Assembly (NCBI GenBank): GCA_016794525.1
Contig: JAEUJY010000175.1
Span: 1-39,718 of the forward strand
Source of the DNA: Myxococcales bacterium
Lineage (GTDB): Bacteria; Myxococcota_A; Polyangia; Haliangiales; Haliangiaceae
Direction: 5' to 3'
Length of the DNA: 39,718 nucleotides
Positions 150-39,582 of this stretch are shown here, in pieces. The notes beneath the pieces were generated by a model. It saw only the letters and a list, made by a program, of their open reading frames with translations. It was not told the origin of the DNA and did no database searches. Numbering within the stretch: the first letter of the stretch is position 1; each line of letters begins with the position of its first letter. The position numbers were made by a program, and so were the translations under genes.

Positions 150-1292
150 TCAGCGGGTGGTCGCGCCGGGTGGAGCCGCCGGTGCGCGACGAACCAGCCA
201 GTGCCGTGCGGGTTCCTCTACGAGGTGGTAGACGGCTGCGGCGATCAGCGGCATCGGCAGCGCGTGCGCAGCGATCCACGCGAGGCGCATCGGCAGGCCG
301 TGGGTGGCGAGCGTGGCGAGCGGGAACTTGTGATGCATGACCCAGAGCCAGAGGTAGTGGGTCATGTACAGCGCGAACGAGATCTTGCCACCGTAGACCA
401 TAGCCCGATGCGCAAACCAACGCGAGATCCGGCCCTCCCCATAGGCGAGGCCGAGCAACAACGGCGGCACCAACGGCACCGCGCACGCCGCCGGGACGCC
501 GACGTGGTTCATCACGGAGGCAACGACTACGAGCGCCAGCAACAGCCACCCTGGGTGCGCCGCCAACGACGTCCGACCGCGTTGTTGGCGGAATAACTGG
601 TACGTCACGCAGCCGGCAAGAAACTCGCTAATGATCTGGAGGGGTGGAAGGCTTGGCGTACCCGGGACGAGGCGCTCCATCACAGCACGCGATCCAGGCA
701 CCGCAGTGATCGCGACCAGGGTCAGAGCCAGCCCGACCGGGCCAAGGCGACCGACGCGCCGCGCGACCCAGACCATCGCCGGGAACAGAAGGTACGCCAG
801 CCATTCGAGGCTGATCGACCACGACACCGCGTTCCAAACGTCGGTGTGTCCGAGCCACGCTTGGATGAGCACCAGGCTCTCAATGAGCCGGACCGTCGAC
901 CAGCGCGCTGGATCGGTCGCGGCGCCTGCGTCGATCCCCAGCCCGCGCACGGCACCGACCAGAGCGACCAGCAGCACCAGATGGACCGGGTAGATCCGCG
1001 CCAGGCGGGCCCGCTGGAACTGGAGGTACCGACGCCATTCCACGCGCTCCACGAACCATGCCTCGTAGTTGTACGAGATGATGAACCCCGAGAGCACGAA
1101 GAACAGGTCGACGCCGAGGAATCCCGGCAACGCGACAAAGCCGAACAACTTGGCCGCGGTCGGCGGTAGAAGCACTGCGGTCACGGCGGTCAAATGCAAC
1201 ACCATCACCCAACCGGCGGCGAAGGCGCGTACGCCGGTCAGCGCCGGCACAAACGGCGGACGTACCGCCGGCGCGGGCGCGGGCGCGGTCAT
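150..1292 (-). CDS. acyltransferase family 3 membrane protein (O-acyltransferase)
   Basis: A 380-residue multi-spanning membrane protein. Visible family marks are LTGVRAFAAGWVMVLH near the N-terminus (the Arg...His pair of acyltransferase_3 proteins), GVDLFFVLSGFI, SWSISLEW and a terminal EEPAR motif. Such proteins O-acetylate or otherwise acylate extracellular polysaccharides or lipids at the inner membrane. The reading frame is open 117 codons further upstream, but that part lies antisense-like inside the polymerase gene and lacks family features. The ATG at 1292 overlaps the polymerase stop by four bases (ATGA), which indicates translational coupling and fixes the start. It is the last gene of the minus-strand block, so a polysaccharide-decorating role is likely; the acyl group is unknown. 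Confidence 0.85.
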   Translation of the reverse strand: MTAPAPAPAVRPPFVPALTGVRAFAAGWVMVLHLTAVTAVLLPPTAAKLFGFVALPGFLGVDLFFVLSGFIISYNYEAWFVERVEWRRYLQFQRARLARIYPVHLVLLVALVGAVRGLGIDAGAATDPARWSTVRLIESLVLIQAWLGHTDVWNAVSWSISLEWLAYLLFPAMVWVARRVGRLGPVGLALTLVAITAVPGSRAVMERLVPGTPSLPPLQIISEFLAGCVTYQLFRQQRGRTSLAAHPGWLLLALVVVASVMNHVGVPAACAVPLVPPLLLGLAYGEGRISRWFAHRAMVYGGKISFALYMTHYLWLWVMHHKFPLATLATHGLPMRLAWIAAHALPMPLIAAAVYHLVEEPARHWLVRRAPAAPPGATTR

Positions 1293-2710
1293 CGTGACAC
1301 CGTCCGACGCTGGCGTTCGGATCTCGCCCGGGCCACGACCACGATCGCCGCGATCAACGCGAAGCCCATCGCGAGTTGGAGGGGGACCGGCGTGAACACG
1401 TTCCGCACGTGCGCCAGCATCGCCGCCAGCACGATCCCACTGATGCACTGCGCGACCCGCGTGTCTGGCCACCGCGAGATGCGCGCGAGCAGCCAGCCCA
1501 CGAGGCCGAGGACCAACGCCACCCCGACGGCCGCGAAGTTCCGGTAGGCCTCGGCGATCATCGAGAACCCGATCGGACCGGCGCGGTCCATCACGACGTT
1601 GCTCAGGATGCGCTGGTCCTCCTCGGCAGGCAGGCGGGTCCACCCCGGAATCACGTAGTACAGCGAGCGATCGATCGGGGCCCAGTAGGTCGCGCCGTTG
1701 TCGAAGGCGTCACCCATGTCGTGCCAGAAGACGACCTCCTCGACGGGCCGCAACGACGTGCCCATCTCGGCCATACCGTCGAGCGGATCGAACGAGACCT
1801 GGGCCTCGGAGACGCGGGCGATGCCGACGGCCCGGACGTTGCGCACGACTGCCATCGCCGCCAACACCGCCACGGCGATCACCAACGTCCGCACCGGTCT
1901 GATCGGAATGCGGCGATATGAGATCACGGCGAGCGCGGTGACGACGGGGAACATCACCTCTCCACGGATGCCCAGCGGCAACGCGATCAACGCCCAGACC
2001 GCGTACACGGCGACGGACACCCGATGGGCGCGGCGCGGTGGCGACGCCGCCAGCAGGACCGCGCCGTAGTCGGTCGTGCGGTAGATGTGCGGGATCGTCG
2101 AGCCGAACGTCGCGTCGAGAAAGCGATCGTAGGAGCCGAACAACAAGCCGACGCCGCCGGACTGTAGTGCCAGCGCGAACCACATTGCGATCGAGCCGAT
2201 GAGCAAGACCGCCCCGACGACGCCGAGGATGCCATCGAGTTCCGCATCCGCCGGTCCCGGCCGACCGATCCGTATCCGGCCCAGCGAGCCCAAGCGTGAC
2301 CCCAGGAAGAACGACACGAAGGCGAGGTCGACCAGCCACAACGCAGACACGGTGCTCGGCCGGAAGAACCACAACTCCATTGGGTCGCGGATGGCCTCGC
2401 CGGGATTACGACCGAGCGCCCACGGCACGACCAAGCCACAATGGAACAGCACCAGCACCAAGAAGAACACCGACGACGGTGACCACAGCCCCCGCGGCGC
2501 GTTGCGAACCACCGAGATCGAGCACAGGATCGCGATCAGCGACGTGAACTCGCACGCGTCTTTCAGATCCAGTGACTCGAGATCGGCGCGGAAGACAAGC
2601 AACAGCGCCCCCAGCAGCAGGTAGGCGATGATCTCGATCGTCTCGAGCGACGAACGCCGCAGCGGCGCGGGCACTGGCGTCAGACTGGGGATGGCGGCGG
2701 GACGGCCCAT
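1289..2710 (-). CDS. Wzy-type O-antigen/exopolysaccharide polymerase-like membrane protein
   Basis: A 473-residue protein with about ten to twelve hydrophobic helices and a large polar loop in the second half (roughly residues 265-360, including WHDMGDAFDNGATYWAPIDR). Topology, length and position fit oligosaccharide repeat-unit polymerases, which join lipid-linked repeat units on the periplasmic face of the inner membrane. These proteins share little sequence, so the call rests on topology and context: flippase, glycosyltransferase, asparagine synthase and acyltransferase on the same strand. The start is ATG at 2710. A 109-base gap separates it from the upstream asparagine synthase stop. Other polytopic polysaccharide proteins remain possible. 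Confidence 0.7.
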   Translation of the reverse strand: MGRPAAIPSLTPVPAPLRRSSLETIEIIAYLLLGALLLVFRADLESLDLKDACEFTSLIAILCSISVVRNAPRGLWSPSSVFFLVLVLFHCGLVVPWALGRNPGEAIRDPMELWFFRPSTVSALWLVDLAFVSFFLGSRLGSLGRIRIGRPGPADAELDGILGVVGAVLLIGSIAMWFALALQSGGVGLLFGSYDRFLDATFGSTIPHIYRTTDYGAVLLAASPPRRAHRVSVAVYAVWALIALPLGIRGEVMFPVVTALAVISYRRIPIRPVRTLVIAVAVLAAMAVVRNVRAVGIARVSEAQVSFDPLDGMAEMGTSLRPVEEVVFWHDMGDAFDNGATYWAPIDRSLYYVIPGWTRLPAEEDQRILSNVVMDRAGPIGFSMIAEAYRNFAAVGVALVLGLVGWLLARISRWPDTRVAQCISGIVLAAMLAHVRNVFTPVPLQLAMGFALIAAIVVVARARSERQRRTVSR

Positions 2711-2819: not shown

Positions 2820-4736
2820 TCACACGCGTGCCGTGGCCTCGCGCCAGGCCTGCCACATCAGCACGACCCAGAGGGACGACTGCCAGTCGCGGCGGCCCGC
2901 GAGGTGCTCGTCCCAACGGGCGCGGATCGGCGCGGGGTCGAGGTAGCCGTCGGCGCGCAGCCGGCGCTCCGCGAGGAGGGCCTCGGCCCAATCGCGCAGC
3001 GGGCCGCGCAGCCACGCACCCAGCGGAACGCCGAACCCGCGTTTGGGCCGCTCGAACAAGCGGCGCGGCACGTGGCGGGCAAGCACGTCGCGCACGACGC
3101 GCTTGCCGCGGTCGCCCTCGACCTTGTGGGCCAACGGCAGCGACCAGGCCAGCTCGACCACGCCGGGATCCAGGAATGGCACGCGGCTCTCGAGCGCGGT
3201 CGACATCGTGGCACGGTCGACCTTCACCAGGACGTCGTCGGGCAGGTACAGCAGCGCGTCGGCCAGCATCGCGCGTTCGGTCGGCGAGCCCTCCAGGAAG
3301 TCCCGCGACAGCGGCAGCAGGCCGGTTGGCTCCCGCCCGCCGCGCACGACCGCCGCCGGATCGATCCAGGTCGAGAGGTAGGCCTGGTAAAAGGCGTCGA
3401 GATCGCGCTCGCCCGCGAACGCCACGCGCCGACGCAGGAAGTCGATCGCCTGGCGCCCACGGGACCGTGGCGCGGTGGCGCCGACGAGGCGATCGAGTGC
3501 GCCGCCGGCGAACCCGGCCGCGGCGCGGCGCCCGGGGACCGCGTACAGCCGCGCGACCCGACGCAAGAGCGCGTAGCGGGTGTAGCCGCCGAACAGCTCG
3601 TCGCCGGCGTCGCCCGAGAGCGCGACGGTCACGTGCGCCCGGGTCAGGCGCGCGAGCAGCGTTGTCGGAAGCTGCGATGAATCCGCGAACGGCTCGTCGT
3701 AGATCCGCGCCAGGTCGGGCACGATCGGCAGGCAGGCCTCGGGCGTGGCGGTGAGCTCGGTGTGCGCGGTGCCGAGGTGGCGCGCGACGTCGGCCGCGAA
3801 GGCCGACTCGTCGTAGCCGCGCTCTGCGAAGCCGATGCAGTAGGTGTGCACCGGACGGGTGGCACAGGCCTGCATGAGAGCGACGACGGTCGACGAGTCG
3901 ATGCCGCCCGACAGGAACGCGCCGAGCGGCACGTCGGCCACCATCTGCCGCCGGACCGCGGTCGTCAGCGCCGCCTCGACTCGATCGGCGGCCTCGCCCG
4001 CGTCGACGCGCAGCGGGTTCGCGAGGCCGCGCATCGCGACCGCGCGCAGGTCATAGTAGGCGACCGGCTCACCGACCCGGCCGTTGGCCAGATCGATCGT
4101 CACGGACGTACCGGCCGGCAGCTTCCCGATGCCGACGTAGATCGACCGCGGCGCCGGGACCCAGCCGTGGCGCAGGTACTGCACGAGCGCGCCGCGATCG
4201 ACCGTGGGGGTGAACGCCGGGTGGACACGCACCGCCTTCAGCTCCGAGCCGAACACCACGCTGTCACCTTGCTGCCCCCAGTACAGCGGCTTCTCGCCGA
4301 AGCGATCGCGCGCGAGCGTGAGCTCACGCGTGCGGGTGTCGTAGACCGCCAGCGCCAGCATGCCGATCAACCGCGGCAGCGTGGCGGCCACCCCATCGCG
4401 GTCGAAGCACGCGAGCATCACCTCGGTGTCCGACGTGCCGCGCAGGCGCGTCGCGGCGAGGTCGCGCCGGAGCTCGCCGTGGTTGTAGATCTCGCCGTTG
4501 AACGTCGCGACGTAGCGGCCCGATGGCGACACCATCGGCTGCGCCCCGGTCGGAGAGAGGTCGACGATGGCGAGGCGGCGGTGGGCGAGGGCCACCGCGC
4601 CGTCCGGCGAGACCCATACCCCGGCGCCGTCGGGACCGCGGTGGGCGATCGCCGTCGCCATCGCCCCGACGATCGCCGCCGCCTCGGCCCGGGGCCGCGG
4701 GGCGCGCCACTCGACGAACCCAGCGATCCCGCACAT
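2820..4736 (-). CDS. asnB: asparagine synthase (glutamine-hydrolysing), AsnB type
   Basis: A 638-residue class II glutamine amidotransferase. The start is set at 4736 because it gives MCGIAGF, leaving Cys2 as the N-terminal nucleophile; an in-frame start seven codons earlier would block it. The glutaminase domain covers about residues 1-200 (AHRGPDG, FNGEIYN, GDRFGEKPLY-like). The synthetase domain follows, with the ATP-pyrophosphatase loop SGGIDSS at 276-282 and further motifs SGDAGDELFGGY and DDVLVKVDRATM. The C-terminal region has ESRVPFLDPGVVELAWSLP, typical of AsnB. The enzyme transfers glutamine ammonia to an adenylated carboxylate. In polysaccharide loci, AsnB paralogs often amidate a sugar uronate rather than aspartate, so either substrate is possible. 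Confidence 0.93.
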   Translation of the reverse strand: MCGIAGFVEWRAPRPRAEAAAIVGAMATAIAHRGPDGAGVWVSPDGAVALAHRRLAIVDLSPTGAQPMVSPSGRYVATFNGEIYNHGELRRDLAATRLRGTSDTEVMLACFDRDGVAATLPRLIGMLALAVYDTRTRELTLARDRFGEKPLYWGQQGDSVVFGSELKAVRVHPAFTPTVDRGALVQYLRHGWVPAPRSIYVGIGKLPAGTSVTIDLANGRVGEPVAYYDLRAVAMRGLANPLRVDAGEAADRVEAALTTAVRRQMVADVPLGAFLSGGIDSSTVVALMQACATRPVHTYCIGFAERGYDESAFAADVARHLGTAHTELTATPEACLPIVPDLARIYDEPFADSSQLPTTLLARLTRAHVTVALSGDAGDELFGGYTRYALLRRVARLYAVPGRRAAAGFAGGALDRLVGATAPRSRGRQAIDFLRRRVAFAGERDLDAFYQAYLSTWIDPAAVVRGGREPTGLLPLSRDFLEGSPTERAMLADALLYLPDDVLVKVDRATMSTALESRVPFLDPGVVELAWSLPLAHKVEGDRGKRVVRDVLARHVPRRLFERPKRGFGVPLGAWLRGPLRDWAEALLAERRLRADGYLDPAPIRARWDEHLAGRRDWQSSLWVVLMWQAWREATARV

Positions 4737-4833
4737 CAGCGACACCCCCGGCGCCACCGGCGCCGCGCCGCGCCGCCGGCGCGCGCGATCGCGTCGATCA
4801 CGGGATGCGCACGGCGTCGCACGGCACCCAAGC

Positions 4834-6090
4834 CTACACCGAATCGTCGGGCGACGCGGCCCGGAGCTTGGCGCGGAGCGGCAACGCCACGACGACCACG
4901 AACATCGTGCACTCGACGGCGTAGCCGATCATCATCGACCACGTCGCCCCGTAGAGCCCATGCCCCGGAACCAGCCGCCAGCACGCCACGGCGATCACGA
5001 TCGCGGTGGTGCCGTGGATCCACGGCTGGACTCGGTAGCTGCGCATGGCGTCGAGCGCGGTGCCGAGGAACAGGTACATCCACAACAGTGCCGACGTCGC
5101 CGCGAGCCAGACCAGCACGCCGCTGTGGCGCGCGAACTCCTCCGAGAACGCCATCCGCAGGACCGGCCGGCCGAGGCCGGCGGCTAGTAGCACGGCCGAC
5201 ACGCCGAGCGCGGCGCCGATGAGGATCGACGTCCGTAGCGTCCGAGCGAAGGGCCGCCACTCGTCGGCGGCGACGTGGCGGGCCAGCCGCGCCATCACCG
5301 CGTTGGTCATCGCGTTGATGATCAGGCCGCCGAGCATGAGCAGCGTCTGCATCATCCCGAACACGCCGAGCTCGCTGCGCGAGACGTGGTGCTCGAGGAA
5401 GTACCGCGGGATGTTGATCTGCAACGAGCCGATCGCGGTCACCAGGCCGAGCTGGCCGTACTGCCGCAACAAGCGCCCGATCGCCGCCGCGTCGCTGCGC
5501 GGCATCGCCGTCGTGTCGTGCGTGGACCACGCGTCCCAGAGGAGGCCGCCGGCGTAGACCGCCGCGGTGGCCCACGCGACCGCCGCGACCGAGTCGGTCG
5601 CCACCAGCACGCCGATGCCGGCGAGCACCGCCACCGCGCCGCGGGCGATCTGCGACCGCGCGACGCGGTCGAGCCGATCGCGGCGTTGCTGGTAGCCGTA
5701 GATGACGTCGCTGCCGCCCTCGCAGGCCTTGGCCAGGGCCACCGCCGCGATGATCCACGCCACCGGCTCGCGGTAGCGCAGGGCGATCACGCCCGCCGTG
5801 ACCGCGAGCGCGGCGAGCATGGCCCAGCCGCGGGTGCTGGCGTAGACCGGCCACGGGTGCTCGTCGCGGGTGTCGGTGGTGACGACGACGCGCAGCTTGA
5901 AGAAGAAGAAGACGAAGATCGGGCCGGTGATCGCGTTGGCCAGCGTCCAGTCACCGACGCGCCGCGAGCCCTCGACCGCCGACGGCGCGAGCTTGGCGAT
6001 CGCGATCTGGATCGCGAACTGGCTGGCCGCCAGCACCGCGCTGCCGAGGAACGCCCACGCGAAGTTGCGGCGGAGCGAGGGACCAGTCAT
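4834..6090 (-). CDS. Wzx-type polysaccharide flippase / lipopolysaccharide transporter (MATE-like)
   Basis: A 418-residue polytopic membrane protein of the oligosaccharide flippase type. The N-terminus SLRRNFAWAFLGSAVLAASQ followed by alternating long hydrophobic helices and short basic loops is characteristic. About ten to twelve membrane segments can be counted. It would move lipid-linked repeat units across the inner membrane for the polymerase encoded two genes downstream. The start is ATG at 6090. The stop is followed by a 97-base gap before asnB. A diverged, truncated copy of its first 75 residues lies immediately upstream (6116-6539), so this gene may have replaced or duplicated an older flippase. 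Confidence 0.83.
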   Translation of the reverse strand: MTGPSLRRNFAWAFLGSAVLAASQFAIQIAIAKLAPSAVEGSRRVGDWTLANAITGPIFVFFFFKLRVVVTTDTRDEHPWPVYASTRGWAMLAALAVTAGVIALRYREPVAWIIAAVALAKACEGGSDVIYGYQQRRDRLDRVARSQIARGAVAVLAGIGVLVATDSVAAVAWATAAVYAGGLLWDAWSTHDTTAMPRSDAAAIGRLLRQYGQLGLVTAIGSLQINIPRYFLEHHVSRSELGVFGMMQTLLMLGGLIINAMTNAVMARLARHVAADEWRPFARTLRTSILIGAALGVSAVLLAAGLGRPVLRMAFSEEFARHSGVLVWLAATSALLWMYLFLGTALDAMRSYRVQPWIHGTTAIVIAVACWRLVPGHGLYGATWSMMIGYAVECTMFVVVVALPLRAKLRAASPDDSV

Positions 6091-6115
6091 CGGGCGTCAC
6101 CGACCATGAGCACCG

Positions 6116-6539
6116 TCACCCGCCCCGCGTGGGCTCGTGCTGGAACACGAAGCCGTGGAACTCGCCGATGGGCTGCAAGACGCCGAACGACGTCGCGCGC
6201 ACCCGCCGGGTGATCTCGGCCTGCCTCATGTCCGGCGTGACGCGCCCCAGCGCGTCGAACTGCTTGCGAATGAGCGGGGGGCGCGTCCACCGCTCGGCGC
6301 AAGGAGTGCTCGCCGCGGGCGTCGGTGGTCTCCAGCGATCGCAGCTTGAGCAACCCGAACACGAAGATCGGCCCGGTCACCGCCAGCGCCCAGGTCCAGG
6401 TGGCGTTGCGCAGGGCGCCGGCCTTCCCGCCGCCACCGAGCTTCGCCAGCGCGATCGTTATCGCCAGCTGCGACATCGACAAGACCGCGCTCCCCGCCAG
6501 CGACCACGCCACGTTCTTGCGGAGGGACGGCGCGCTCAT
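6116..6539 (-). pseudogene. chimeric remnant: flippase N-terminus joined to the C-terminal tail of an unrelated gene
   Basis: From ATG 6539 the frame reads SLRKNVAWSLAGSAVLSMSQ and ends its similarity at LETTDARGEH, about base 6305. This matches the first ~75 residues of the adjacent intact flippase at roughly half of positions. Beyond that point the same frame turns into Arg/Ala-rich nonsense. A different minus frame instead becomes strongly coding-like, with nearly every third codon base G or C. It gives a tail of about 60 residues including RPPLIRKQFDALGRV, EITRRVRATSFGVLQPIGEF and FHGFVFQHEP, ending at TGA 6116-6118. I read this as a deletion or recombination junction fusing two gene ends. 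The tail loosely resembles formyltransferase-type C-termini, but I cannot identify it. The first frame stays open to 6087, where an ATGA overlap with the next start is probably fortuitous. Confidence 0.6.
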
Positions 6540-6609
6540 GCTCGCCGGCGAGCATAGTCGCTGGCGTCGCGCGGCGCGCGTGTCGCGGCCGAGCACGTAC
6601 GCGTGCGCA

Positions 6610-7770
6610 TCATGAGTCTCCCCGACGTGAGGGACGCGTCCACAGCGCGACGTGCGCGGCGACGGCCGCGTCGATCGTGAACGGACTCGCCGCGAGGACC
6701 GCGCGGCGGCGCGCGCGCGCGGCCGGGGTCGGCGACGACATCGCCTGCAGGGCATCGGCCCATGGCCGCGGCGACGTGGTCGTGACCACGGTCACGCCCT
6801 CGACACGCTCGGCGATCTCATGGACGCCGGGCAGGTCGGCGGCCACCACCGGCGTCCCGCAGGCCAGCGATTCGAGCACGACCCCAGGGAGCCCCTCGAT
6901 CACCGATGGCAAGATCGACGCGTCGGCGGCGACCAACCACCGCCCGACGTCGGGGCGCTCGCCGACGAAGTGGGCGCGATCCAGACACCCGGACGCCGCC
7001 AGCCGACGCCGGGTCTCGGCCTCGAGCGCGGTGCCGCCGCGCCCGACGAAGACGACGTGCGCGTGCGGCAGCAGCGGCAGCAGCGTCGCGGTGAACAGGT
7101 GGTTCTTGGGCGGGTCGAAGCGGCCGACCTGCACGAGCAACGGTGTGCCTGGCGGCACGCCAAGCTCGGCACGCACGCTGCCATCATCCACGGCGTCGGC
7201 GAAGCGCGCTGGATCGACGCCGTTGTAGATGACCTGGCAGCGCGGGTCGCGCTGCCACTCCGGCGACCATCCTTCCGCCAGGCTCGCGGCCGAGACGCCG
7301 AGCAGGTCGGTCGCCGTGAAGTCGAGCATGCGGCGCATGCCCAGGCGGTAGGCGCGGCGGCGCACGGTCGACGGCTGGCCGTCGGAGGTCGACCGGAAGT
7401 GGGCGATGCGCTGCGGGACCCCGACCGCGAACGCCAGGGCCAACATCAGCCCAGACGTCAGGAAGACGTGGGAATGCACGACGTCGATCCCCCGCTCACG
7501 GATGAGGCGCATGAACCGGGGCGCGAAGCCTGCGTCGAGGCGACACGGGTGGACCGCGCCGCCGAGCTGGCGGATCTCGTCATCGAGGGTCCCGGGCGCG
7601 CCCGACAGCGCCGCGAACTCCTGCACGACCAGCGCCGGGTCCGTGCGCCGCATGATCTCGACGGTCCGGAGCTCCGCGCCGCCGCGGTGCATCGTCCCGA
7701 AGACGTGGAGCACGCGGCGAGCGCGCCCGCGGCGCGTCGGCTGGTCGAATCGTCGGGCGGGGGCGCTCAT
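6610..7770 (-). CDS. glycosyltransferase family 4 (GT-B)
   Basis: A 386-residue GT-B glycosyltransferase. The N-terminal half begins VLHVFGTMHRGGAELRTVEI, the donor/acceptor-domain opening typical of GT4 enzymes. VVHSHVFLTSGLMLALA is the usual 'HxH' strand-helix. The C-terminal domain shows VIYNGVD, LVQVGRFDPPKNH and the EX7E motif (E292 to E300 in IEGLPGVVLESLACGTPVVA), which binds the nucleotide-sugar donor. The start is ATG at 7770; an open extension of 22 codons lacks features. It is the first gene of the minus-strand polysaccharide block and probably adds a sugar to the lipid-linked repeat unit on the cytoplasmic side. Donor and linkage cannot be told from sequence. Confidence 0.9.
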   Translation of the reverse strand: MSAPARRFDQPTRRGRARRVLHVFGTMHRGGAELRTVEIMRRTDPALVVQEFAALSGAPGTLDDEIRQLGGAVHPCRLDAGFAPRFMRLIRERGIDVVHSHVFLTSGLMLALAFAVGVPQRIAHFRSTSDGQPSTVRRRAYRLGMRRMLDFTATDLLGVSAASLAEGWSPEWQRDPRCQVIYNGVDPARFADAVDDGSVRAELGVPPGTPLLVQVGRFDPPKNHLFTATLLPLLPHAHVVFVGRGGTALEAETRRRLAASGCLDRAHFVGERPDVGRWLVAADASILPSVIEGLPGVVLESLACGTPVVAADLPGVHEIAERVEGVTVVTTTSPRPWADALQAMSSPTPAARARRRAVLAASPFTIDAAVAAHVALWTRPSRRGDS

Positions 7771-7881
7771 GGTGAGGCCCGCGCGCGAGGCTTCGGGCAC
7801 TTGCAGCACATAGCGTATCGCGGACGCCGCGCCCACGCGAGGCTACCGACGCGGATCTACGCGGGGCGCGACGCCGCGTCG

Positions 7882-11325: not shown

Positions 11326-12426
11326 CTACTGCAGCTCGCGCTCGCCCATCGACTGCGTCGGGCGGGCGTTGGCGCCGAAGCGCGCGCGGAACGCGGCGAT
11401 GCGCTTCTCGGCGTCGGTGCCGGTGCGGCGCAGGACGATCCACTTCACGCCCTCGCTGCACGGCGGCGTGGTCAGCGAGCCCGCGTAGCGATAGGCGCCG
11501 GTCTCGGACGGCAACAGCGCGCTGGGATCGAACGGCTTCTTGAGGGCGCCGCTGCCGCCAGCCTTGGGCAGCTGCTTCCACACCGGGGCCAGCGCCGCGG
11601 ACGGCGCGCCATCGGCGAACAGCACGCCGACGACCGCCAGCTTGCCGGCCTTGTTCTTGTGCACGAGGTGCACCTCCATCGCGTAGGGCTCGCCCGCGAT
11701 CGTGTGCTCGCTGGGCGTGTGGAAGTGGAACTGCACCAGCTCGTAGCGCGCGCCGTCGACCACCGCGTAGCTGCCCGGCTGCAGGTCGACCTGCAGCGTG
11801 TGGCCGTTGTCGGTCACCTTGCCTGGCGTCGGCTTGTAGACGAAGAACACCGACTCGTCCTGGGCCGCGCGCCGCTTCGGCAGGATGTCGATCGGCGACT
11901 GCTCGTGGCCATCGCCGCACGCCGCGTACTGCTCGTCGAGCTCGCCCCAGTGGCTGGGCCCCTCGGCGCCGGTGTAGGCCCAGTGCGGCCCGGGGCCGTG
12001 ATCCGCGGGCGGCGGCGCGGGCTCGTCGGCGTCGTCCTCGGGCGGATCGGCGTCGGCGGGCGTGTCGGCCGGCTCCTCGGCCGGCTCGTCGTGGCTGGCC
12101 TTGGCGGACGCCGGGCGGCGCTCGGCGGCGTCGGCCTTGGCGGTCCGATCACCCCGGTCGCGGCCGGCGCGGGCCTCGGTCTTGGGCCGCCGGGCCTTGC
12201 GGGCCTTCGGGTCGGCGTCGGCGTCCTCGCCGTCGGCCTCGTCGTCGTGGGCCTTGGCCTTGGGCTTGGGCCGCTGCGCCACCGGCTCGCCCACCAGCTT
12301 GGACACCGCGTCGGCGAGCTCGTCGACGCGCTGCTCCAACCCATCGACACGCTTGGGCTGGTCGAACACCTTGCACCCAGGGGCGAGGGCGATGAGGGCC
12401 ATCAAGAGGAGGTGCCGCACAGCCAC
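11326..12426 (-). CDS. alpha-carbonic anhydrase lipoprotein with long charged linker
   Basis: A 366-residue protein. A short signal peptide ends in LIALAPGC (Cys18). A possible coiled coil follows (VDGLEQRVDELADAVSKLV), then about 100 residues very rich in Lys, Asp, Ala and Pro. The catalytic domain spans about 148-366: HWAYTGAEGPSHWGEL, QSPIDI, and zinc ligands His234 and His236 in QFHFHTPSEH and His253 in EVHLVH. The spacing matches bacterial alpha-class enzymes. LTTPPCSEGVKW is the usual substrate-pocket segment. It hydrates CO2 to bicarbonate outside the cytoplasm, anchored to a membrane. The start is GTG at 12426 (a second GTG is two codons later). TACGAT at 12464-12469 suggests a short leader. 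Confidence 0.92.
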   Translation of the reverse strand: MAVRHLLLMALIALAPGCKVFDQPKRVDGLEQRVDELADAVSKLVGEPVAQRPKPKAKAHDDEADGEDADADPKARKARRPKTEARAGRDRGDRTAKADAAERRPASAKASHDEPAEEPADTPADADPPEDDADEPAPPPADHGPGPHWAYTGAEGPSHWGELDEQYAACGDGHEQSPIDILPKRRAAQDESVFFVYKPTPGKVTDNGHTLQVDLQPGSYAVVDGARYELVQFHFHTPSEHTIAGEPYAMEVHLVHKNKAGKLAVVGVLFADGAPSAALAPVWKQLPKAGGSGALKKPFDPSALLPSETGAYRYAGSLTTPPCSEGVKWIVLRRTGTDAEKRIAAFRARFGANARPTQSMGERELQ

Positions 12427-38301: not shown

Positions 38302-38391
38302 CGCGCGGCCTCACCCCGCAGCGGTGAGCGGCGTGACTTTCGTCGTTCACGCCGTCACACGGCGTCCCCTGGGCGCTCTACCAGCGTGGGC

Positions 38392-39582
38392 ATGTTCGGG
38401 CTCGCTGACATCCTGTACCGCCAGATCCGCGCCGGCGAGGAAGAGGCGAACCGCGTCTACGAACCGGTGATCGGCGTGGTCACCAGCATCGATGACCCGT
38501 CGAAGCTGTGTCGGGTCCGCGTGCAGTTCCCGTCCTTGTCGACGACGGACGACGCGTGGTGGGCGACGGTGGTCAGCCCGGGCGCCGGCAAGGACCGCGG
38601 CTGGTTCAGCTTACCCGAGGTCGGCGACGAGGTGCTGTGCGTGTTCGAGCACGGCGAGATCCACCGGCCGGTGATCATCGGCCAGCTGTGGAACGGCAAG
38701 GACAAGGCGATCGACAAGAACGACGGCGCCAACGAGCGCCGCGTGATCACGTCGAAGTCGGGCTCCAAGCTGATCCTCGACGACAAGGAGCAGGAGCTGA
38801 CGATCAGCGACGGCGGCGGCATCGGATCGATCAAGATGTCCAAGGACGGGGTCACCTTCACCTCCAAGCAGGGCGACGTGGCCCTGCAGGCCAAAGGCGA
38901 CCTCGACATCTACGCCGGCGAGATCCAGATCAAGGGAACCACCGTCGACCTGATGGGCAAGTCGACGGGCGTCGACGGGACCGCGGCCGCCGCCCTCAAG
39001 ATCAACGGCAACATCGTCGCGCTCAAGGGCGCGACGATCGACATCAACCCGGGCGGCGTGCCCAAGGCCGCGAAGTGCAGCGGCGAGGTGTCGGGTGACG
39101 GCGAGAATCCGGGCGCGGGCGGCGGGACCGCGGGCGGCGGCAGCGGCAGCGGCAGCGGCAGCGGCGGCGGTGGCGGCAGCGGCAGCGGTGGCAGCGGCGG
39201 TGGAGGAGGCAACGGCAGCGGCGGCCCCAGCGGCGGCGGCACCAGCCCGGGCAGCAACGGCGGCGCCGGCGGCGGCAGCGGCACCGACGCGCCGCAGAAC
39301 CAGCCGGTCGAGGAGCGCCCGCCGCTCGACGTGCACCAGATCGAGATCAAGGTGATCAACGCGCTCGACCAGCCCGCGGTCGGCGTCTTCTACCAGCTGG
39401 TCCAGCCCGACGGCCGCACGCGCACCGGCACCACCGACGGCGACGGCATGATCAAGATCGACGACATCGAGAAGCCGGGCGACTGCCAGCTCACGTTCCC
39501 CGACGTCGACCAGCAGGTGCCCGAAGGCGACAAGCCCCCGCCGGCGAGCGCCCCGCCCTCCTCCACGACGACCGCCACATGA
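38392..39582 (+). CDS. contractile-injection spike protein (gpV/VgrG OB-domain type) with Gly/Ser-rich linker
   Basis: A 396-residue protein. Residues ~22-105 form the phage baseplate V/VgrG OB-fold: YEPVIGVVTSIDDPSKLCRVRVQFP, DDAWWATVVSPGAGKDRGWF, LPEVGDEVLCVFEHGEIHRPVIIGQL. Residues ~120-220 are the beta-prism spike (GSKLILDDKEQELTISDGGG, then repeated short strands). A ~75-residue linker of almost only Gly and Ser follows (DNA about 39110-39285), then a C-terminal Ig/carboxypeptidase-regulatory-like domain (IKVINALDQPAVGVFYQLV). The gp27-like N-terminal part of full VgrG is absent. It would form the tip of a contractile injection (T6SS-like or phage-tail-like) device and carry cargo through its C-terminus (inference). 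ATG 38392 is used; GTG 38386 is possible. Confidence 0.83.
   Translation: MFGLADILYRQIRAGEEEANRVYEPVIGVVTSIDDPSKLCRVRVQFPSLSTTDDAWWATVVSPGAGKDRGWFSLPEVGDEVLCVFEHGEIHRPVIIGQLWNGKDKAIDKNDGANERRVITSKSGSKLILDDKEQELTISDGGGIGSIKMSKDGVTFTSKQGDVALQAKGDLDIYAGEIQIKGTTVDLMGKSTGVDGTAAAALKINGNIVALKGATIDINPGGVPKAAKCSGEVSGDGENPGAGGGTAGGGSGSGSGSGGGGGSGSGGSGGGGGNGSGGPSGGGTSPGSNGGAGGGSGTDAPQNQPVEERPPLDVHQIEIKVINALDQPAVGVFYQLVQPDGRTRTGTTDGDGMIKIDDIEKPGDCQLTFPDVDQQVPEGDKPPPASAPPSSTTTAT

Follow-up and report, generated by a model that had tools for sequence, protein, structure and literature searches.

In the Salmonella O-antigen groups B1 and D1, remnants of wzy have been attributed to serial deletions, and a wzy gene elsewhere took over the function, according to the excerpted account of these clusters (PMC3715488). 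By analogy with that excerpt, the scar that we describe here is of the same kind, as it also consists of truncated relics of former polysaccharide-processing genes within an active cluster. It differs from the remnants in the excerpt in that the relic is the start of a flippase gene fused to the end of a formyltransferase gene, and no intact ancestral arrangement was found for it. Both pieces also have described full-length counterparts. The first piece is the N terminus of a Wzx-like flippase (Polysacc_synt_3, PF13440), with 56 to 64% identity to full-length flippases over 76 to 78 residues, but unlike these it lacks about four fifths of the protein, so it is not a full-length multi-helix transporter, and alone it has no Pfam match. 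For the second piece, an intact homologue from the same phylum (genome G217) matches the sugar N-formyltransferases WlaRD, VioF and PseJ and the N-terminal domain of ArnA, all of the PF00551 family (E 3e-6 to 4e-4), and it also matches GAR transformylase (E 3e-7). Unlike these enzymes, the remnant comprises only the C-terminal 58 residues or so. We consider it very probable that the segment from 6539 to 6116 on the minus strand is a nonfunctional deletion or recombination scar in a Wzx/Wzy-type surface-polysaccharide cluster.

The window, by which we mean the whole stretch of DNA that was analysed (39,718 bases), is contig C49 of a draft genome of 9.8 Mb, which is split into 177 contigs and has 1.71% contamination. 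On the minus strand, the genes are arranged in the order GT4 glycosyltransferase, scar open reading frame (ORF), intact Wzx-like flippase, amidotransferase, and Wzy (Table 1). The GT4, flippase, amidotransferase, and Wzy genes are also clustered in another genome of the same genus, G006, where the order is flippase-GT4-amidotransferase-Wzy; in the source genome, the flippase fragment comes after the GT4 gene. The scar ORF lies within a longer open frame (6087-6755, minus strand), and beyond the junction it is the formyltransferase remnant read in a nonnative frame. Its stop codon and the start codon of the intact flippase overlap as ATGA, and this flippase start lies 25 bases past the stop codon of the formyltransferase remnant.

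Table 1. Features of the polysaccharide locus, numbered from the first base of the window
Feature	Position	Strand	Basis
Group 4 glycosyltransferase, upstream of scar	6610..7836	-	PF13692/PF00534; 61% to G006
Mechanical chimeric ORF, 150 codons from ATG 6539, stop 6089-6087	6087..6539	-	ORF listing and alignment
5' remnant of Wzx-like polysaccharide flippase gene, ATG 6539, 78 codons	6306..6539	-	64% to G006 flippase (E 8.3e-27), 56% to neighbour
Junction: flippase homology out, formyltransferase homology in, frame change	6295..6307	-	Match edges, alignments, frame scores
3' remnant of stand-alone formyltransferase gene, last ~58-60 codons and stop TGA 6118-6116	6116..6298	-	Homology to G217 protein
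Intact Wzx-like flippase, 418 aa	4834..6090	-	PF13440, 27.3 bits (cut-off 23); 48-51% to G006 flippase
Asparagine-synthase-like amidotransferase, downstream	2820..4757	-	PF00733; 69% to G006
O-antigen polymerase Wzy	1289..2710	-	PF14296; 60% to G006

The switch of reading frame at about 6307-6295 is real. From 6539 to 6306, the flippase frame has a third-position G+C of 0.96 and a codon log-odds score of +41.5 bits, with the other two frames at -105 and -66 bits. From 6305 to 6117, it is the tail frame that carries the coding signal (third-position G+C of 0.97, +17.4 bits), with the flippase frame at -80 and the third frame at -68 bits. Twelve long ORFs of the window, treated as genes and with the intact neighbouring flippase among them, served as the training set for the codon table. 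None of 474 windows of 56 codons from these training ORFs was won by a wrong same-strand frame, an outcome that was unchanged with leave-one-gene-out training. The change in codon score coincides with the change in homology: depending on the comparison, the flippase matches end at 6306, 6303, or 6297 and the formyltransferase matches start at 6307, 6298, or 6295. The first-pass annotation had described about 75 codons matching the neighbouring flippase, an end of that homology near 6305, and coding quality passing to a frame that ends at 6116. All of this proved accurate, the matching piece being 78 residues long, and the tail motif that it quoted is present, as the frame ending at 6116 reads TRPPLIRKQFDALGRVTPDMRQAEITRRVRATSFGVLQPIGEFHGFVFQHEPTRGG up to its stop codon. 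Its overall description of a chimeric scar, in which pieces of two unrelated genes are read in different frames, is borne out by the frame scores together with the two separate homologies. Among the seven repeats listed for 5700-6700, none is convincing as a repeat able to drive a deletion; only one touches the junction, and this 22-nt pair with 82% identity (6278-6299 and 6631-6652) is probably due to chance.

The flippase fragment corresponds to about 19% of a 409-residue relative, as the homology ends at about residue 78. It is identical to the intact neighbour (4834-6090) at 44 of 78 positions (E 1.8e-19) and to the G006 flippase at 49 of 76; in the same columns, the intact neighbour and the G006 protein are 51% identical. 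In a tree of 11 flippases, the fragment groups with G006 (ultrafast bootstrap 97, SH-aLRT 94) with the intact neighbour outside. Because just 17% of the kept columns contain the fragment, this support is good but not overwhelming. The next to join are the intact flippase of the window (96/96) and then that of G004 (100/100). These comparisons suggest that the fragment belongs to a G006-type lineage and the intact flippase to a second one. A recent tandem duplication of the neighbouring flippase, as a simple story, was ruled out because the fragment is nearer to G006, with the tree again read at 17% column occupancy. The earlier description of the fragment as a diverged copy of the neighbouring flippase therefore holds as far as a piece of flippase is concerned and fails as a simple diverged tandem copy. 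At E 0.001, the fragment had a match in 9 of the 56 genomes searched (its own included), and only the source genome had two. A simple replacement of the flippase in place is not supported, because the fragment lies after the GT4 gene here and the G006 flippase lies before it.

The tail frame had been guessed to encode the C terminus of a tailoring enzyme, possibly a formyltransferase, and a protein search with it, which the first-pass annotation had proposed, confirmed this. The tail matches the end of the G217 protein (53% identity, E 2.5e-14). Against an intact relative of 221 residues it aligns with roughly the final 56, and members of this stand-alone family have around 220 residues. Two plasmid proteins annotated as "formyltransferase family protein" match weakly (44.6% identity, E 0.001, and 32%, E 0.008); three of the five plasmid records with a tail match were dropped, with E values of 1 or above. 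PF00551 (Formyl_trans_N) scored above its curated cut-off in all three intact homologues scanned, namely, the G217 protein and the two plasmid proteins. The tail, which matches no Pfam family, does not contain this domain, and neither does the flippase sequence upstream of it. As the tail lacks the N-terminal catalytic domain, it is a remnant and not an enzyme. When the tail was used by itself as a query, Pfam, NCBIfam, and solved structures gave nothing usable or significant. Across 377 genomes of the phylum, the tail matched at E values up to 0.1 in 26 non-self genomes, 25 of them at 0.004 or above, and only G217 was kept. A match in G094 (E 0.002, 33% identity, one internal stop) was dropped, as it lies antisense to a longer ORF. 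With the tail as the query, a scan of genome contigs returned 213 pattern matches, of which none was confirmed. The same kind of scan with the G217 and Azospirillum proteins yielded 79 loci (L067 to L145) with titles from many phyla, among which the G217 protein recurs as L067 in a metagenome-assembled genome (MAG) titled Deltaproteobacteria bacterium, and the tail matches 64 of these loci at E 1e-3 as computed in a database of those 79 loci only. We compared the tail with 43 intact members, hand-picked from the 79 loci for a match of at least about 56% along almost the whole length. The tail retains 15 of the 17 columns that are 90% conserved among them, and its mean identity (0.468) is below that of 42 of the 43. 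This divergence fits a decaying remnant, but it would also fit a divergent member of the family.

Compared to intact relatives of 409 and 221 residues, about 331 flippase codons and 165 formyltransferase codons are missing, or about 1.5 kb if nothing else lay between them, with one intact relative for each gene as the yardstick. In the source genome, a query with the full-length G006 flippase recovers the intact gene, the fragment, and nothing else, so no detached C-terminal half. A full-length formyltransferase query finds no detached N-terminal half; it finds the tail (58% identity) and matches on contigs C122 (32%, query residues 63-138, E 7.4e-7) and C41 (22%, residues 63-145, E 0.017), both of which were rejected as the missing half because they are too distant compared to the tail. 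The idea that the locus lost several genes, and that a relative would display the undeleted arrangement, did not gain support: any genes that may have lain between the two left no trace, and the undeleted order was seen neither in G006 nor, by tblastn with the genes of the window, in G004 or the 79 formyltransferase loci. The nearest arrangement is that of L068 (4171-7837, on a MAG contig titled Candidatus Kuenenia), where a formyltransferase gene is near genes for a Wzy_C protein and a flippase-like protein on the opposite strand. The formyltransferase gene is intact and lies about 1.4 kb from the convergent flippase-like gene, whose product is 30% identical over 411 amino acids, with a Pfam score just under the cut-off. 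The L068 locus sits downstream of ORFs that, judged by eye from the sequence, resemble tgt, carA, and ndk.

In the simplest account, an older flippase gene, whose lineage persists in G006, lost everything past about codon 78, and what was left of it became attached, in another frame, to a formyltransferase gene at about codon 166 of the latter. This formyltransferase gene would have lain directly upstream of the present intact flippase gene. A single deletion or illegitimate recombination may have made this join. What is observed is two truncated, out-of-frame gene pieces that abut within a polysaccharide cluster. With neither the formyltransferase catalytic domain nor four fifths of the flippase, the out-of-frame product is a remnant. 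The lost formyltransferase presumably modified a sugar of this polysaccharide, and the present flippase would now transport alone. The cluster would formerly have included a second flippase and an enzyme that transfers formyl groups. The lineage has therefore probably altered its sugar coat, as part of the ordinary turnover of surface-polysaccharide clusters. In practice, 6087-6755 is better annotated as a remnant than as a hypothetical protein.

A misjoin of two unrelated pieces during assembly or binning would also place two gene ends side by side, and the genome is indeed a fragmented draft with some contamination. Yet both pieces belong to a single polysaccharide cluster and share a strand, the gene set of this cluster is also found together in G006, and the closest relative found for the flippase piece is in the same genus. 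The missing halves were found on no other contig of the assembly, where a misjoin might have left them, and the only one of the listed repeats to reach the junction is the pair that we attribute to chance. We therefore regard an assembly chimera as unlikely. The notion that one intact fusion gene was broken by a single inserted or deleted base is hardly credible: the coding signal does cross between two frames of one strand, but the pieces come from unrelated families, and each aligns with only a part of an intact relative, namely, the first 78 of 409 residues in one case and roughly the final 56 of 221 in the other. Moreover, no flippase-formyltransferase fusion was noticed among the matches, which were not screened one by one for fusions.

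It is very unlikely that a new, functional short gene has arisen, with the 150-codon ORF or its overlap in use, for example, as a translationally coupled leader for the flippase. The ATGA overlap and the coding-like codon use that the flippase fragment retains would agree with this, but the overlap is what the start sequence of the flippase imposes, as ATGA forces a stop there in one frame of three, and the ORF's own frame has a score of -80 bits once the junction is passed. In addition, conservation of the same short gene in relatives, which would have spoken for a gene in use, was looked for and not found: at E 0.01, all six other genomes of the genus lack the tail, which is thus present in one of seven with the source genome included. 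More doubtful still is the specific proposal that the scar ORF was retained as a leader and that its overlap couples flippase translation to the upstream glycosyltransferase operon; if this were true, a deletion scar would have turned into an expression link. The deletion or recombination scar thus remains our preferred reading of the segment.

The surroundings of the formyltransferase genes in the 79 loci bear on what the lost enzyme may have done. Within 5 kb of the formyltransferase gene, a DegT aminotransferase is present in 14 of the 79 loci, a GT4 or sugar transferase in 13, an NAD-epimerase in 13, NeuA/NeuB in 12, and NeuC in 8, so that each type of sugar gene is near in a minority of the loci. 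Neighbouring ORFs were grouped by single linkage, and a single representative gave each cluster its name, with Pfam used for six of them and the eye for a response regulator. In G217, the two ORFs next to the gene, judged by eye from the translations, resemble ornithine carbamoyltransferase and an MBL-fold hydrolase, which are not sugar genes. From gene content, a sugar-modification role is likely for part of the family.

Other neighbours recur in the same set of loci. A GNAT acetyltransferase (PF13302 in the representative) is near the formyltransferase gene in 14 of the 79 loci, on the same strand in all 14 and within about 9 to 58 bases in 8 of them, and a response-regulator-like ORF is present within 5 kb in 20 loci. 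When 192 genomes, including the source genome, were searched with a formyltransferase profile, 45 had a match at 1e-8. The strongest non-self matches (L038 to L045, L050, and L053, from other genomes of the class) lie in open frames of about 1,540 to 2,300 codons, several of which include much of the C-terminal part of the formyltransferase profile; these frames may encode large multidomain proteins.

Elsewhere in the window, the 366-residue ORF at 11326-12426 on the minus strand has a eukaryotic-type (alpha) carbonic anhydrase domain (PF00194, E 6.6e-40, residues 156-363), and since the domain begins only at residue 156, the protein has a long N-terminal extension. At the end of the contig, 38386-39582 on the plus strand encodes a type VI secretion/phage baseplate OB-domain protein (PF04717).
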